Virus record (IMG/VR): IMGVR_UViG_3300031578_000057
Location: 1-50,464 of that record
Origin: a virus
Direction: 5' to 3' (one strand)
Length of the DNA: 50,464 bases
A program made the position numbers and the translations under genes. Position 1 is the first letter of the stretch. Every line of letters starts with the position of its first letter. Under the pieces are notes generated by a model. It worked only from the letters and a program-made list of their open reading frames with translations. It did not search any database and was not told the origin of the DNA. Positions 3,235 through 50,464 of the stretch are shown one piece after another.

Positions 3235-4779
3235 ATGTCTATTGACAGCAAGCATCCAGACTTCTCCGAGGTCGCAAGCGACTACCGCGTGATGCGGGAC
3301 ACGGTCGCCGGCGAACGTCGAATAAAAGAGGCCACCTTCGCGTACCTTCCGGCCACGACCGGGCAGGTTATAGACGGGGCTTTGAAGAACACAGGTTCGC
3401 CCGGTTGGTCGGCGTACGTCAACTACCTCGCGCGGGCGCGGTTCCCCGACCTCGTGAAACAGGCGGTCGGAACGCAAGTCGGCGTTATGGTGCGCGAGCC
3501 CGCAGTCATCAAACTCCCGGCGGTAATGGAACCGCTCCGGAATAAGGCAACGCGGAAGGGGGAGTCTCTTCAGGCTCTCCTCCGGCGGATCTACGAACAG
3601 CAACTTAGCTTCGGGCGCATCGGTCTCCTCATTGACTTCCCGCAAGATCCATTCGCAGCCGAGCGGGCGCAACTCCCGCATATCGTGGAGTACGACGCCG
3701 AGTCGATCATAAATTGGGACGACGAGCGCTTCGCCGAGTATGGCACGAACATTCTTAGCTTCGTCGTGTTGAATGAGACGGTTCAGGTCCGGGGGAAAGA
3801 CGGCGCCGAAATGTTCGACTGGCAGGAAGAACGGCAGTTCCGCGTAGCCATGCTCGAACAGGTGGACCCGCAGTTCCCTATCGGGATTTCCAACCCACTC
3901 GTATACAAAACGTTCGTGGAGAATGACAACGTACGGTCCGAAGAGGTGACGCCAAGTTTCAAAGGCGTTACGATGGAAGAGCTACCTTTCACGTTCATCG
4001 GCTCGAATGACTTGAATGCGAAGCCCGACGAGATTCCGCTTCTCGGACTCGCGCGCCTCGCGTTACATATCTACCGCTCGGGCGCCGATTACTACCACGC
4101 GCTCCACGTCATCGGCTCCGATACGCTAGTTATTTCCGGTGATGAACTTTCGGCGAATGGCGACGTGAAGGACGAGAGCGAACCCACCCGCGTCGGCGCG
4201 GGCGCGGTCGTCCGGCTCGATGATAATGGCAAGGCGTACTTCATCGGGATCGACTCGAAGGGAATCCCCGAGCAGCGGGCCGCGATCCAGAGTGACTTGG
4301 TCGAAGCGCGCGAGCATGGCGCCCGACTCCTCGAACCCCGTAAAGGTCAAGCCGAGTCCGGCGAAGCCCTCCGGGCGCGGATTTCTTCCGCCACCGCGAA
4401 CCTTCACCAAATTGCGCTCACGGGCGCTGCCGGGCTCGAACATTCACTCAAGCAGATCGCCACGTGGGTCGGGGCGAACCCCGACGACGTTGAAGTCATA
4501 CCGAACCTCGACTTCACTCAATCCAAGATTGACCCGAAGAAGGCAAAGGACTTGATTGAGGCTAAGCGAGACGGCGGCCTCAAGATTTCCGACGTGTCAA
4601 TCCATGCGTGGATGCAGGATAACAACCTAACCCGGTTGACGTTTGAGGAAGAGCAAGAGGCACTTGACGCAGAGGAAGAGCCGGTGAACACCGTGCCCGC
4701 CCCGGTCGTGAACATGGTAGACCCGGCGATACCCGCCGAGGCTGCCGAACCTATCCCGCCGGAAGAGCCCGCGGAATAA
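3235..4779 (+). CDS. Portal protein (DUF4055-like)
   Basis: This 514-residue protein forms the dodecameric ring at the capsid vertex through which DNA enters and leaves. The assignment rests on its position between terminase and scaffold, its length, and a stretch typical of DUF4055 portals: GRIGLLIDFP, then an LPHIVEYDAESIINW segment, then YRSGADYYHALHVIG. The C-terminus is acidic and Pro-rich (DAEEEPVNTVP onward) and is probably disordered. No head-morphogenesis (Mu gpF-like) domain is fused or adjacent. Confidence 0.88.
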   Translation: MSIDSKHPDFSEVASDYRVMRDTVAGERRIKEATFAYLPATTGQVIDGALKNTGSPGWSAYVNYLARARFPDLVKQAVGTQVGVMVREPAVIKLPAVMEPLRNKATRKGESLQALLRRIYEQQLSFGRIGLLIDFPQDPFAAERAQLPHIVEYDAESIINWDDERFAEYGTNILSFVVLNETVQVRGKDGAEMFDWQEERQFRVAMLEQVDPQFPIGISNPLVYKTFVENDNVRSEEVTPSFKGVTMEELPFTFIGSNDLNAKPDEIPLLGLARLALHIYRSGADYYHALHVIGSDTLVISGDELSANGDVKDESEPTRVGAGAVVRLDDNGKAYFIGIDSKGIPEQRAAIQSDLVEAREHGARLLEPRKGQAESGEALRARISSATANLHQIALTGAAGLEHSLKQIATWVGANPDDVEVIPNLDFTQSKIDPKKAKDLIEAKRDGGLKISDVSIHAWMQDNNLTRLTFEEEQEALDAEEEPVNTVPAPVVNMVDPAIPAEAAEPIPPEEPAE

Positions 4780-5701: not shown

Positions 5702-5836
5702 GGCACAATCAACCCGTATGCGGACCCATGAGGGGACGTTAGGCGGCGACCCACGGACAGCCATGGTGCTTGTCCCACCAAACGGGTGCGGAATACTTCC
5801 GTGCCCCCCACTCACACCTTTTAAGGACATTTTATC

Positions 5837-6847
5837 ATGGCACTAACCCAGATTGCGGATATCATCCCGCCCGACGTATTCTCGGACTACGTTCAGCTTT
5901 TGACTGCCGAGCGTTCGGCACTCATTCAGAGTGGCGTCGTAGAGGCGTCGCCTTTCTTCGACAACCTTTTGGTTGGCGGGGGCACCATCTTTCAGGTGCC
6001 CCACTTCAAGGATCTCGACAACACCGAATCCAACGTTTCCACGGATCAGGACTTCGGTGTCAATGACATGGCCCCGGTCAAGACCACGACCGGTCGTGAG
6101 ATTGCCATCCGGCTTTCGCGCAACCAAGGTTGGTCGAGTGCGGACCTTGCCGGCGACCTCGCCGGTGCGGACCCCATGGAGTCGATCGCTTCGCGCGTGG
6201 CGAACTATTGGGTTCGTCAGGCACAGACGATCGTGATTTCGTCCATTCAGGGCGTCATCGCAAACAACATCGCGGCCGACGCCGGCGACATGGTCGTTGA
6301 CATCACGAACGGTGCTGGCGCCGTCACCGCGGCCAACCTGTTCTCTGCCGAGTCGTTCATCGACGCGATTCAGACGATGGGTGACGCAGGCGAAGACCTC
6401 GTCGCAGTTGCGGTGCATTCGGTGGTTTACCGTCGCATGCAGAAGAACAACTTGATCGACTTCATCCCGGACTCGAACGGCGTTGTGAACATTCCGACCT
6501 TCCTCGGCCGGCGTGTCATCGTTGACGATGGTCTTCCCAAGGTCGCGAACGGCCCGAACTTCGAATTCAGTTCGTACCTGTTCGGTTCCGGCTCGATCGT
6601 GTCGGGTGTCGGTTCGGCTCGCGTACCCACGGAAATCGAGCGTGAAGCTCGCGCCGGCCAGGGTGGCGGCATCGAGACGCTTCACAACCGCGTCGAGTGG
6701 CTCTATCACCCGCGCGGAACGGCGTTCCTCGAAGCCGGCATTGCGTTGGAGTCTCCGACGAATGCTGAACTCGCGGCTGCGGCTCAGTGGGATCGTCGCT
6801 TCGAGCGCAAGCTCGTGAAGATCGCCGAGCTTCGCACGAACGGGTAA
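5837..6847 (+). CDS. Major capsid protein
   Basis: This 336-residue protein is expected to have the HK97 fold and build the icosahedral shell. It begins MALTQIADIIPPDVFSDYVQ, carries a distal segment ETLHNRVEWLYHPRGTAF, and ends in a basic helix (WDRRFERKLVKIAEL). These features resemble the family of about 330-residue capsid proteins that follow DUF4055 portals. There is no N-terminal delta domain, since scaffolding is a separate gene. The ribosome site AAGGA is well placed. A strong hairpin follows the gene. Confidence 0.9.
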   Translation: MALTQIADIIPPDVFSDYVQLLTAERSALIQSGVVEASPFFDNLLVGGGTIFQVPHFKDLDNTESNVSTDQDFGVNDMAPVKTTTGREIAIRLSRNQGWSSADLAGDLAGADPMESIASRVANYWVRQAQTIVISSIQGVIANNIAADAGDMVVDITNGAGAVTAANLFSAESFIDAIQTMGDAGEDLVAVAVHSVVYRRMQKNNLIDFIPDSNGVVNIPTFLGRRVIVDDGLPKVANGPNFEFSSYLFGSGSIVSGVGSARVPTEIEREARAGQGGGIETLHNRVEWLYHPRGTAFLEAGIALESPTNAELAAAAQWDRRFERKLVKIAELRTNG

Positions 6848-47437: not shown

Positions 47438-47722
47438 CTACGCGCCCAGCGGCCGACGGTCGGCCTTCGTAACGGCTCTCTTCAGAGGTTTGGAAAGGTC
47501 TCGTTCTCGTCCGATGTTGATTTTGTGGAGAAGGTGGTGGCGCATCATAAGAATCGCACCGGCGGCCGTGGCTCTTCCGACGTGCGGGTAATCGGCCGGG
47601 GCGCCGTCTGGCCCGAGAAGTAGGTACGTCCCGAGGTGGGTCCGTGAAAGTCGAAAGCCGTGCTTCGCAGCGAAAGCGCTGGCGGTCTTGTGGATTATGT
47701 GAAGGTCAGATTTCAGATTCAT
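47438..47722 (-). CDS. Small basic hypothetical protein
   Basis: This 94-residue basic protein begins MNLKSDLHIIHKTASAFAAK, continues FRLSRTHLGTYLLLGPDGAP and ends in a Lys/Arg-rich tail. GGAG precedes the ATG. It may bind nucleic acid. The 92 bases after it hold no confident gene, though a short frame beginning MKTENEMTPTPKVPE is open there. Confidence 0.65.
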   Translation of the reverse strand: MNLKSDLHIIHKTASAFAAKHGFRLSRTHLGTYLLLGPDGAPADYPHVGRATAAGAILMMRHHLLHKINIGRERDLSKPLKRAVTKADRRPLGA

Positions 47723-47785
47723 CGTTTTGTTCTCCGTTTGGTTGTTGCTTTCTATTCGGTTAAAGTGTCGCGCGCTTGAGCGCTT

Positions 47786-48061
47786 TCACCAAGTTTTCTT
47801 TCGAGCGGCCAGAACGTACAGGTTCTTCTCCACTTTCGCAAGATCCCAATCGTCCGAGAAATCGAGTTCGAGGTCTTTTCCGACGATCGAACCGCCGGCG
47901 GGCCGCGCCGAAAAATCCGGTCCAACTTTTATTTCATTTTCAGATTTGCTTTCGGTAAAGCCTTTCCCCCTCGGGTCGGGTCTCGCCTTATTGCGCATCC
48001 TCGTCAGTGCGCATGCCCCTCGGGTCAAGTTTCGAATCACGGATAGGCAACTAACACGCAT
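47786..48061 (-). CDS. Small early leftward protein
   Basis: This is 91 residues from the ATG at 48061 (AAGGA upstream) or 70 from the ATG at 47998. The first residues (MRVSCLSVIRNLTRG) are encoded over one copy of the 15-base repeat, which makes the longer start less sure. The likely core begins MRNKARPDPRGKGF and has an acidic stretch (KDLELDFSDDWDLAKVEKN) and a basic end. It is near the start of the leftward operon. Function unknown. Confidence 0.5.
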   Translation of the reverse strand: MRVSCLSVIRNLTRGACALTRMRNKARPDPRGKGFTESKSENEIKVGPDFSARPAGGSIVGKDLELDFSDDWDLAKVEKNLYVLAARKKTW

Positions 48062-48062
48062 A
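48048..48062 (-). repeat. 15-base repeat, copy 1
   Basis: Matches CAACTAACACGCAAC at 13 of 15 positions. It overlaps the likely start of the gene at 48061. Other copies lie at 48096, 48226 and 49366. Confidence 0.5.
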
Positions 48063-48064
48063 TC

Positions 48065-48235
48065 TCATTTCCTTTCGTCACCTCCGGGGGTGACCTCATT
48101 AACACGCAACTCCCGAGGGGAGAAATTCTTCCCCATGGGACGCCGGCCGCGCCCGGGGGGTCTGCCCCCGCACGCATGCGCAACTATCGCTTTGCGCCGG
48201 TAACACCCCCCGCGAGGGATACCGGCAACTAACAC
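48065..48235 (-). CDS. Possible first peptide of the leftward operon
   Basis: A GTG-started frame of 56 residues with GGGAG six bases upstream. The GTG lies inside a copy of the 15-base repeat. The product is basic (CYRRKAIVAHACGG, ending SPRELRVNEVTPGGDERK), and its stop is three bases before the next ATG. The DNA also holds several hairpins, so it may instead be an untranslated control leader. Confidence 0.35.
   Translation of the reverse strand: MLVAGIPRGGCYRRKAIVAHACGGRPPGRGRRPMGKNFSPRELRVNEVTPGGDERK
48096..48110 (-). repeat. 15-base repeat, copy 2
   Basis: Matches the repeat at 12 of 15 positions (core TAACACGCAAC intact). On the minus strand it is preceded by CTCGGGAG. A small hairpin (GTCACC/GGTGAC) lies just beside it. 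Confidence 0.45.
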
Positions 48236-48240
48236 GCAAC
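48226..48240 (-). repeat. 15-base repeat, copy 3 (reference)
   Basis: CAACTAACACGCAAC. On the minus strand GGGAGAG precedes it. It is flanked by an inverted repeat (GCCGGTA/TACCGGC) on one side and the palindrome CCCGTACGGG on the other, so it sits in the most structured part of the control region. Confidence 0.55.
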
Positions 48241-48325
48241 TCTCCCGTACGGGCGCGAATTCGCCCGGGGGGCGAACTCACTCCCCTAGGGAAAAGTCTC
48301 CGGGCCGTACAACGTCAGAACGCCG

Positions 48326-48353
48326 GTTATACTTTAGTGAATTCGACGACAAA
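48326..48353 (-). promoter_or_regulatory. Candidate leftward promoter
   Basis: On the minus strand TTTGTC (48353-48348), a 16-base spacer and TATAAC (48331-48326) resemble a sigma-70 promoter. It would start RNA near 48319, ahead of the leftward operon. The complementary TATACT (48328-48333) may serve the plus strand. Confidence 0.4.
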
Positions 48354-48370
48354 AAAAAAAAAATTATTTT
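48351..48370. other. Poly-A/AT-rich tract in divergent control region
   Basis: Thirteen A in a row followed by TTATTTT, in an otherwise GC-rich genome. It lies between the divergent promoters. It could be bent or easily melted DNA, either an UP-like promoter element or a replication origin feature. Confidence 0.5.
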
Positions 48371-48461
48371 CGCCCCCCGCGTCGATTCGTGTAATGTTCT
48401 CCCGGCCCGACGCCGTAGTGGACCCATCGCCGAAAAATTTTTCGGCCGGGAGAGTAGAACA
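48366..48461 (+). promoter_or_regulatory. Type A promoter-leader, copy 1
   Basis: ATTTTCG (48366-48372), exactly 19 bases, then TAATGT (48392-48397). A 31-base block (48391-48421) is identical to 49415-49445. CTCCCGGCC (48399-48407) pairs with GGCCGGGAG (48444-48452), which contains the ribosome site of the gene at 48462. A second inner palindrome lies at 48429-48446. The RNA can thus hide its own ribosome site. Confidence 0.7.
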
Positions 48462-48545
48462 ATGATAGTTGTCAGCATGCTAGCAGGATTTTTCGTGGTT
48501 CTAGTTGGTTCGGATATCGTCGCCAGCGCGCGACGATTTCGCTAG
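48462..48545 (+). CDS. 27-residue membrane peptide, cassette 1 small ORF
   Basis: The ATG follows GGGAGAG at normal distance. The peptide is one hydrophobic helix (MIVVSMLAGFFVVLVGSDIV) with a basic end (ARRFR). It is short for a functional gene, but its leader is conserved, and the second cassette has an ORF at the same place. It could act as a small membrane peptide or only couple translation to the next gene. The second leader begins seven bases later. Confidence 0.5.
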   Translation: MIVVSMLAGFFVVLVGSDIVASARRFR

Positions 48546-48552
48546 ACTAGCG

Positions 48553-48603
48553 TCGAAAGAATAACCGGCGCCCCCCGGCGCCACCACTCGGGAGAGTACT
48601 ACA
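48553..48603 (+). promoter_or_regulatory. Type B leader, copy 1
   Basis: A 51-base segment, identical at 50 positions to 49664-49714. It holds a GGCGCC-CCCC-GGCGCC hairpin, then CCACCACTCGGGAGAGTA, and ends at the ATG of the 250-residue gene. GGGAG is the ribosome site. Confidence 0.7.
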
Positions 48604-49356
48604 ATGGATTTGAATCAGGAAACTAGAGAGTATTACGAATCAGTCGACGGTATAGTGATGGACATTACTAGCGCGGTTCGTTCCGGCGAAATCGACGCGG
48701 ACGAGTGGAGTGATAGGCTACACGAAATCGTCGACGGAAATTTTTGGGTGATTTATACCTATCAAGCGAAACTAGTTGTAGCGTTCATATCGGATAACGA
48801 TACCGCGGCATTCGACGAGGGTATGGAACTCGACCATTCGGCCGGAATTAATTGGAGTGGCCTAGCCTATTTCGCAATGTACGCGGACGCATGCGAACGA
48901 ATGCCCGATTTCGACGCTATGCTAGCCGAACGCGACGAAATCGTCGATAGCGTCGCGCGGATGCTATTCGTCACGGCGTTCGCGGACGCATGCGAAGACG
49001 AGGAACTAGCGTCCGAGGGTTTCGAAATCGACCGAACGCAGGCGGCCGGCGCCGGTCAAGACTGGTTCGATACCGTCACGGACGACACCCCCGGCGAGGC
49101 AATAGACAGGGCGCGCGAAATCGTCGCCGATTTCGAGGCTAGGAACTCCCGGACGATAGAGGACGCTGGCAATGAATGGTCGGCGCTGGATTTCCACTAT
49201 GGGGCCGGCCGAGAACATGGCCTAGAGCGGTTCGGATACTGCATTGCCATGACCTACCTCGGCGCCGGCGTTGGGTTGTGGGATGATTTTCGGGGGGATA
49301 AACCCCCGGCGTTCGAATGCGGAAATTCCGAGTTCAACGCGCTGGAGTTCCTCTAG
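48604..49356 (+). CDS. Acidic 250-residue protein, cassette 1
   Basis: A very acidic (Asp/Glu-rich) and largely helical protein. Segments include NQETREYYESVDGIVMDITS, FWVIYTYQAKLVVAF, WSGLAYFAMYADACERMPDF, FVTAFADACEDEELASEGFE and ERFGYCIAMTYLGAGVGLW. No catalytic motif is recognised. YADACE and FADACE recur about 50 residues apart, hinting at an internal duplication. Codon use (CTA, ATA, AGG) and many CTAG sites differ from the rest of the genome. Early expression and anti-host or anti-defence action are inference. Confidence 0.8.
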   Translation: MDLNQETREYYESVDGIVMDITSAVRSGEIDADEWSDRLHEIVDGNFWVIYTYQAKLVVAFISDNDTAAFDEGMELDHSAGINWSGLAYFAMYADACERMPDFDAMLAERDEIVDSVARMLFVTAFADACEDEELASEGFEIDRTQAAGAGQDWFDTVTDDTPGEAIDRAREIVADFEARNSRTIEDAGNEWSALDFHYGAGREHGLERFGYCIAMTYLGAGVGLWDDFRGDKPPAFECGNSEFNALEFL

Positions 49357-49365
49357 ACGAATGCG

Positions 49366-49380
49366 CAACTAGCGCGCAAC
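49366..49380 (+). repeat. 15-base repeat, copy 4
   Basis: CAACTAGCGCGCAAC, 13 of 15 matches. It lies between the two right-end cassettes, just upstream of the second type A promoter-leader, as copy 3 lies upstream of the first. Confidence 0.5.
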
Positions 49381-49389
49381 GTTGAAACT

Positions 49390-49485
49390 ATTTTCGTTCG
49401 GCCGGGCCGGGGGGGTAATGTTCTCCCGGCCCGACGCCGTAGTGGTATCAAGGCCCCGAGTTAACCGGGCCGGGAGAGTAATACA
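49390..49485 (+). promoter_or_regulatory. Type A promoter-leader, copy 2
   Basis: ATTTTCG (49390-49396), 19 bases, TAATGT (49416-49421), then the same 31-base block as copy 1. CTCCCGGCCCG (49423-49433) pairs perfectly over 11 bases with 49466-49476, which carries GGGAG, the ribosome site for the ATG at 49486. The loop sequence differs from copy 1 while the pairing is kept. Confidence 0.7.
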
Positions 49486-49662
49486 ATGGACGACGATACG
49501 AAATTCGCAGTAGCCGAGAATCTAGTTCGCGAAATTCTGGACAGGGAACGCGAAATTATGGACGACGAGGACGCGATTAAAACCCTGCGAAGTCGAATCA
49601 CGTTGAAACGTGCTAGTAATGAATCCCTGCGATTCGTTCTGCGCAGCGTCAACGCTATCTAG
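49486..49662 (+). CDS. 58-residue acidic helical protein, cassette 2 small ORF
   Basis: The protein is helical and charged (KFAVAENLVREILDREREIM, then DAIKTLRSRITLKRASNESL). It has no similarity to the 27-residue peptide in cassette 1, although both occupy the same place after a type A leader. Function unknown. It ends one base before the second type B leader. Confidence 0.65.
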   Translation: MDDDTKFAVAENLVREILDREREIMDDEDAIKTLRSRITLKRASNESLRFVLRSVNAI

Positions 49663-49663
49663 T

Positions 49664-49714
49664 TCGAAAGAATAACCGGCGCCCCCCGGCGCCACCACTC
49701 GGGAGAGTAATACA
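49664..49714 (+). promoter_or_regulatory. Type B leader, copy 2
   Basis: Differs from copy 1 by one base (GTAATACA instead of GTACTACA). It has the same GGCGCC hairpin, the same GGGAGAG ribosome site and the same distance to the start codon. Confidence 0.7.
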
Positions 49715-50464
49715 ATGAGACTAGCCGAAAAATTGCTATATGATATCGTGCGATCCTACCTCGAATCGGGACAGGGGGAAATCGACGCATGCGACGAGTA
49801 CGCGGAGCCCGGATATTCTACAGATACCCCCGACGCCCCGATATTGTTCGCCGATTGGAACGAATCGCACGCTACCCCCGCGTCCGACCCTTTGCGGGAG
49901 TATCAGCTAAACCATATCACGTCAATCGCGGACGCGTCCGCTATTCTCGCCGGCCGAATAGACAAACGAGACGCACGAAATCGCATAGCACGAATCGGGG
50001 CGCTAGCCGAACGTCTCGGATGGGGCGTAGAGTGGTCGGACGAGTGGACGATTTGCTACGCGGGGGGTAGTTGTAACAAAGCAGTCAGAACGCGGGGGGA
50101 TTCATATAGTTGGACCCCGAGTTTTGTTATGTTCGACGGCGAAATTCAGTGTAAAGAATGCGCGCTGGAGGACGCGGACGCGTTGGAGGAGTATCTAACC
50201 GATAACGCGGACGCCGCAGATACATTCGGGGTCGATTGGAACTCCCGAGGGTGGCGACTGACTCGGCCCGGTTATGAATCGGGCTGGCATGCGGGACAGG
50301 ACGCTAATCCGCACGATATTCTGAAGAGTCTGAACTCACGCAACGTCGAAGCGTTATTCTCGATTGACGGAACGGGCCAATTCGACATTCGCTTTTCACT
50401 ATGGGTCCGGCCGCTGAATTCTCGGCATGGTTCGGGGGTATGGTACGACCCTGCGGGGGAGTGA
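49715..50464 (+). CDS. Acidic 249-residue protein, cassette 2
   Basis: A complete gene whose TGA is the last three bases of the window. It is acidic, with a helical N-terminus (RLAEKLLYDIVRSYLES), a possible zinc site (CYAGGSC around residue 113 and CKEC near 145), an Asp-rich helix (DALEEYLTDNADAADTFGVD) and a Gly/Trp-rich end (WRLTRPGYESGWHAGQD). It is no relative of the cassette 1 protein, although length and charge are similar. Parts recall phage proteins of the antirestriction-like type only in charge. Function unknown. Confidence 0.78.
   Translation: MRLAEKLLYDIVRSYLESGQGEIDACDEYAEPGYSTDTPDAPILFADWNESHATPASDPLREYQLNHITSIADASAILAGRIDKRDARNRIARIGALAERLGWGVEWSDEWTICYAGGSCNKAVRTRGDSYSWTPSFVMFDGEIQCKECALEDADALEEYLTDNADAADTFGVDWNSRGWRLTRPGYESGWHAGQDANPHDILKSLNSRNVEALFSIDGTGQFDIRFSLWVRPLNSRHGSGVWYDPAGE

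Follow-up and report, generated by a model that had tools for sequence, protein, structure and literature searches.

Two tandem gene cassettes with repeated promoter-like and ribosome-binding leaders at the right end of a siphovirus contig

Two cassettes at the right end of the contig

IMG/VR record IMGVR_UViG_3300031578_000057 (50,464 bases, analysed over its whole length and referred to here as the window) is a siphovirus by gene content. Rightward genes encode the terminase, portal, tape measure and tail proteins, and leftward genes following this structural set encode a DNA polymerase, a helicase-primase, an exonuclease and a T5 A1-like protein. At the right end of the contig lie two tandem gene cassettes, transcribed in the direction away from the leftward replication genes, in which the same leaders precede different open reading frames (ORFs). 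Both have the order ATTTTCG-N19-TAATGT, leader A, small ORF, 54-nucleotide (nt) leader B and an ORF of about 250 codons, and the distance from ATTTTCG to the first ATG is exactly 96 nt in each. The two cassettes are real and above chance, as exact repeats within 48001-50464 reach a length of 46 nt, compared with at most 18 nt in 200 dinucleotide shuffles. The duplicated leader architecture is well bounded and unusual. A preliminary description of the sequence had given this order, which stands except for the placement of a 15-base repeat (see below), and the four ORFs encode 27, 250, 58 and 249 amino acids (aa). The features of the cassettes, all on the + strand, are as follows (RBS, ribosome-binding site; pI, isoelectric point).

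48366..48397, promoter-like block 1, ATTTTCG-N19-TAATGT, identified by sequence; predicted +1 at G48404
48391..48421 and 49415..49445, 31-nt block (putative -10, discriminator TCTCCC and first transcribed bases), 31/31 identical
48398..48453, leader A inverted repeat, copy 1, TCTCCCGGCC ... GGCCGGGAGA, Shine-Dalgarno in the 3′ arm; fold z -1.90
48448..48464, RBS block GGGAGAGTANNACAATG, 1 of 4, exact match
48462..48545, ORF 1a, 27 aa, hydrophobic with a basic C-terminus (MIVVSMLAGFFVVLVGSDIVASARRFR)
48553..48606, leader B copy 1, with RBS (2 of 4) and ATG, 53/54 identical to copy 2; fold z -1.54
48567-48582, leader B copy 1, predicted hairpin GGCGCC-CCCC-GGCGCC
48586-48597, leader B copy 1, predicted mini-hairpin ACUC-GGGA-GAGU with GGGA in the loop
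48604..49356, ORF 1b, 250 aa, pI 4.05
49390..49421, promoter-like block 2, ATTTTCG-N19-TAATGT, hexamers conserved; predicted +1 at G49428
49422..49477, leader A inverted repeat, copy 2, TCTCCCGGCCCG ... CGGGCCGGGAGA; fold z -2.69
49472..49488, RBS block, 3 of 4, exact match
49486..49662, ORF 2a, 58 aa, pI 5.0
49664..49717, leader B copy 2, with RBS (4 of 4), 53/54 identical to copy 1; fold z -2.26
49715..50464, ORF 2b, 249 aa, pI 4.56, ending with the contig

Conservation between the two cassettes is distributed unevenly. In register, ATTTTCG is identical at 7/7 positions, GTAATGT plus the following bases at 31/31 and the last 20 nt before the ATG at 16/20. Identity is at chance level in the spacer of the promoter-like block (5/18), in the latter half of the loop of leader A (7/20), in the upstream 60 nt (15/60) and in the coding parts (24/84 in the first ORF). 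The RBS block has four exact copies in the genome, one at each start of the four cassette ORFs. The non-coding parts had been described as nearly identical, which holds for the 31-nt block and for leader B (51 bases as first described, 54 nt when the ATG is counted) and fails for the spacer, the loop and the upstream sequence. The coding parts are unrelated, as had been claimed; ORF 1b and ORF 2b share no BLASTP similarity. The G+C content at third codon positions (GC3) is 0.50-0.64 in the four cassette ORFs versus 0.57-0.86 in 29 other tabulated ORFs, the lowest of which (0.57) belongs to the divergent gene adjoining the cassettes.

Hexamers, spacing and RBS have been kept while spacer, loop and upstream sequence are at chance, suggesting selected expression parts instead of a fresh duplication, because a recent copy would leave the spacer, loop and upstream sequence alike. 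Conserved motifs at fixed spacing suggest promoter and translation-start elements. The reading that we consider probable is a duplicated expression module, in which two bicistronic units, each with its own host-type promoter and with a shared RBS module, carry exchangeable accessory genes. A recent tandem duplication with recombination at short homologies appears unlikely. It would make the leaders crossover sites for the exchange of cargo, or sequences homogenised by conversion, and leader identity would then say little on regulation. The strict identity of the 31- and 46-nt blocks, with sharp borders to unrelated sequence, is consistent with such a history, as are the unrelated ORFs with their lower GC3 and the lack of relatives that would show longer-term conservation. 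However, ATTTTCG is an island between chance-level flanks, its distances from TAATGT and from the ATG are the same in both copies, and duplication or conversion tracts would not single out hexamers.

Promoter-like blocks, leader folds and upstream repeats

In the expression-module reading, each copy would begin with a promoter for the host RNA polymerase, with ATTTTCG as the -35-like and TAATGT as the -10-like element, followed by a common initial transcribed sequence and then by the standard RBS block before the small first ORF. When TAATGT is taken as the -10 element, the usual distance places the RNA start most likely at G48404 and G49428. TCTCCC would therefore be discriminator DNA absent from the cassette's own mRNA, in which the Shine-Dalgarno (SD) sequence would be largely free. 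Just upstream of promoter block 1, an A run at 48351-48363 may be an UP element; cassette 2 has no such run.

Leader A had been described as a hairpin. The inverted repeat is present in both copies (arms of 10-12 bp, about 32 nt apart, with the RBS itself included), although the arm that would cover the SD is predicted to lie outside the cassette's own mRNA. The calculated cost of opening the SD is 7.0 kcal/mol in cassette 1 and 11.9 kcal/mol in cassette 2 with the TCTCCC arm, versus 3.0 and 2.4 kcal/mol from the predicted +1. According to these fold predictions, an SD-covering hairpin in the cassette's own RNA is incompatible with the -10 reading of TAATGT. In T4 gene e, the 5′ strand of an RBS-sequestering structure coincides in part with a late promoter (PMC3014915). 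The predicted geometry here is like that of T4 e, soc, 49 and I-TevI (PMC3014915), in that the 5′ strand would lie within the putative promoter and the 3′ strand holds the SD; the predicted +1 falls after TCTCCC. Leader A might thus be a translational switch of the gene e type, in which read-through RNA hides the SD and RNA from the cassette's own promoter is translated. The overlap of the -10 and discriminator with the anti-SD arm and the difference in opening cost with and without that arm fit such a switch, and for longer RNAs of cassette 1 the predicted cost is 6.6-13.2 kcal/mol (3.9 in one). Unlike the T4 cases, the structure is repeated in two cassettes, and it is cassette 2, the possible recipient of read-through, that is predicted to keep its SD open (2.3-2.8 kcal/mol) in RNAs whose 5′ ends lie 25 to 200 nt before +1. 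The SD would stay open there because the G-rich promoter spacer captures the same pairing arm; spacer plus TAAT (CCGGGCCGGGGGGGTAAT, 49402-49419) matches the RBS region (CCGGGCCGGGAGAGTAAT, 49465-49482) at 16/18 positions. Moreover, no + strand gene that would read through cassette 1 was identified. As the switch fits cassette 1 and not cassette 2, it is judged improbable, and a simple strong-start module is favoured over it on the strength of the modelled folds. No + strand terminator-like site was found in 47700-50464, so that cassette 1 may read into cassette 2, which is perhaps served by both promoters.

Upstream of the cassettes, the following repeats, again on the + strand, bear on a further explanation.

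48047..48241, five GCAACT repeats (48047, 48106, 48180, 48225 and 48236) in the divergent intergenic region; possible operator or iteron array
48225..48240, "15-base repeat" copy 1, GCAACTAACACGCAAC, 141 nt upstream of ATTTTCG
49365..49380, "15-base repeat" copy 2, GCAACTAGCGCGCAAC, 25 nt upstream of ATTTTCG

The five GCAACT copies lie within about 350 nt on one strand, and any other 350-nt stretch of the window holds at most two. The best match to the 15-base repeat of the preliminary description is GCAACTANCNCGCAAC at 48225 and 49365, a member of the GCAACT cluster at 48047-48241. The repeat thus exists, but it is out of register between the cassettes (141 versus 25 nt), and its first copy lies outside the region to which the cassettes had been assigned. 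The divergent intergenic region (48040-48300) also holds several GC-rich inverted repeats and is a candidate origin or operator region. Accordingly, the leader A inverted repeat could be a pair of DNA operators, about 44 bp apart and flanking the start site, through which a phage regulator co-represses both cassettes, with GCAACT as further sites. The arms occur in both cassettes, GCAACT is clustered upstream, and the unpaired GACGCCGTAGTGG after the first arm is also conserved, which RNA pairing does not explain. On the other hand, the 3′ arm holds the RBS, which would be conserved for that alone and also occurs in leader B, where there is no 5′ arm; the GCAACT repeats stand at no fixed distance from the promoters, and no regulator was identified. 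An operator pair is thus a possible but doubtful explanation. Coding of the 31-nt block, as a leader peptide from the ATG inside TAATGTTC (48394 and 49418), is very improbable and was rejected. An ATG does lie within the conserved block, and in copy 1 its frame ends at a TGA overlapping the next ATG. However, copy 1 has no SD, the predicted peptides diverge after nine residues, and the ATG sits in the -10 element, so it would be untranscribed if TAATGT serves as such.

In leader B, the second copy of the RBS stands behind a GC-rich hairpin that is the same in both copies and would insulate the second, larger ORF; a role as insulator or 5′ protector is what we infer from the modelled fold. Long-range pairing between the conserved loop of leader A and leader B (-11.8 kcal/mol) was rejected, as 261 of 1000 shuffles reached this value. 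Rfam returned no family above its gathering score; the only hit was a small RNA model at 48179-48372, away from the leaders, which scored 15.3 bits where 41 would be required.

Cargo genes and related leader systems

The larger ORFs had been described as acidic, in agreement with their calculated pI values; of the small ORFs, one is basic and hydrophobic and the other has a pI of 5.0. ORF 1a and ORF 2a gave no convincing family match. ORF 1b weakly matches phrog_15314 (E 5.5e-4) and shows weak similarity to gp93 of Rhodococcus phage ChewyVIII (E 0.001 in a single comparison). ORF 2b matches phrog_35561 (E 3.9e-23), a family of unknown function, and contains four conserved cysteines (C114/C120 and C146/C149) with a GWHxGQD-type motif. 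Its homologues are found in ChewyVIII, Mycobacterium phage DrLupo, Bacillus phage vB_BcoS-136, two IMG/VR contigs and a Rhodococcus assembly. In ChewyVIII, the neighbour of the homologue (gp87) is annotated as Ocr-like antirestriction, and in the Rhodococcus assembly the homologue is followed, about 0.5 kb further on, by a gene that matches the anti-restriction family phrog_2059; the family members in an anti-restriction context are at 3884-4756 of locus L034 and 5767-6468 of locus L091. The ORF 2b family is therefore a candidate anti-restriction or host-takeover family by gene neighbourhood, and because anti-restriction genes lie close to two of the homologues, an anti-host role is a reasonable guess. 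PADLOC gave no relevant match, and the AlphaFold models (mean predicted local distance difference test, pLDDT, of 42 for ORF 1b and 37 for ORF 2b) were too poor for a structure search. Morons are independently transcribed phage accessory genes. Like morons, the cassettes carry accessory genes that differ in base composition and have a promoter-like element of their own; unlike morons, they share repeated leaders, and no + strand terminator-like site was found in 47700-50464, so that they are not classed as such.

A comparable use of repeated leaders is seen in ChewyVIII, whose own leader, about ACCACCACCGAACNARGGRAACGACATG, precedes gp86, gp87 (the ORF 2b homologue) and gp91 (L034 3229-3261, 3856-3888 and 5943-5975). 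Shorter variants of this type of leader occur before gp90 and gp95. As in the cassettes, a repeated leader stands before unrelated right-arm genes that include an ORF 2b homologue and an annotated Ocr-like gene; the leader sequences of the two phages are unrelated, and identity among the ChewyVIII leaders is lower (24/30).

Cluster K mycobacteriophages contain start-associated sequences (SAS), a 13-bp RBS-covering repeat GGGATAGGAGCCC with 11-19 copies per genome (PMC3203893). In the extended form (ESAS), SigA-like -35/-10 hexamers 17-18 bp apart and a 17-bp imperfect inverted repeat lie upstream of the SAS (PMC11373665; Adephagia). The likeness in concept that had been proposed is apt, since here too an RBS-covering repeat directly precedes non-structural genes from different families, at four ORF starts, and, as in ESAS, promoter hexamers, inverted repeat and start region are repeated together. 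The proposed difference in sequence and structure was likewise upheld. Unlike SAS and ESAS, the present system has two distinct leaders in a fixed order, forming two bicistronic cassettes of other sequence, and in contrast to ESAS the hexamers are 19 apart and the arms of 10-12 bp include the RBS. With up to 2 mismatches, the SAS consensus has three matches in the window (3136-, 20814- and 31025+; chance mean 1.06), none at the cassette ORFs. The phages also differ, the nearest polymerase relatives here infecting Xanthomonas and Stenotrophomonas. The cassettes resemble the cluster K elements in concept and are not members of them.

Leaders in other genomes and the expression-module reading

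According to the preliminary description, many relatives with the same leaders and different ORFs would support a platform; none was found among viral contigs, phages or plasmids. Exact leader B has no match in 2.9 million viral contigs, the promoter plus hairpin pattern has none in viral contigs, and the leaders have no blastn match in phage or plasmid records. The 15-base RBS motif by itself occurs in 51 viral contigs, with one copy each; in none of the 15 best-ranked of these do the 40 nt before the motif resemble either leader. The closest contig by A1-like protein (38%) shares only replication genes and has no repeated start leader (L038/G001). For background, 150 fetched loci (2.05 Mb, some overlapping) were scanned for a 30-nt start leader common to unrelated ORFs, and only this phage, ChewyVIII and contig L076 were positive. 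In L076, the leader GAATNANATTAAATTAGTGGGGGTGAAGTG precedes two unrelated ORFs (107 and 2064), and in viral contig L075 it precedes duplicated ORFs (6647 and 7764). Residues 1-577 of the window's tail protein are matched at 100% identity by a stretch encoded in IMGVR_UViG_3300031539_001409 (L036 5109-6839), which points to a near-identical phage in the sample of that record. The last bases of the present contig (up to 50464) are the stop codon of ORF 2b, and further cassettes may thus be missing beyond the assembled sequence.

Several points weigh against a duplicated expression module. Only two copies in one genome are available, and gene conversion between them could also keep the 31- and 46-nt runs identical. 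The hexamers, 19 apart, fit sigma-70 poorly and were missed by a consensus scan, and the window yielded no further promoter of the ATTTTCG-N19-TAATGT form. Neither hairpin has covariation support, and the 5′ arms are identical between the copies. In addition, no relative carrying the leaders was found in the collections searched, which is a lack of support and not a refutation, because these collections yielded no close relative of the phage either: the DNA polymerase has at most about 40% identity to the best-scoring phages (of Xanthomonas, Stenotrophomonas and Janthinobacterium) and the A1-like protein at most 38% to any viral contig found. The earlier idea of a modular platform thus draws on the pattern within the genome, namely conserved hexamers and RBS, diverged spacers and unrelated ORFs of lower GC3, and finds no backing from relatives. 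A platform within this genome is plausible, and one common to several phages is unproven.

In the favoured expression-module reading, the module would let unrelated accessory genes, probably anti-host and perhaps early, be expressed together at a similar level. A more elaborate proposal, to be taken as speculative, is a two-tier chassis indifferent to its cargo in an unsampled lineage, in which a fixed promoter-leader A unit and an intercistronic leader B would carry swappable anti-host pairs, and the anti-SD arm would be confined to promoter DNA and leave the RBS open. If the cassettes are indeed a reusable platform, the leader sequence would serve as a homology-free bait for candidate anti-host or anti-defence ORFs in relatives, and the leaders would be compact standard parts with measurable insulation. 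It would also follow that the reuse of a promoter-plus-RBS leader, known from cluster K mycobacteriophages, had arisen in a phage lineage unrelated to them.

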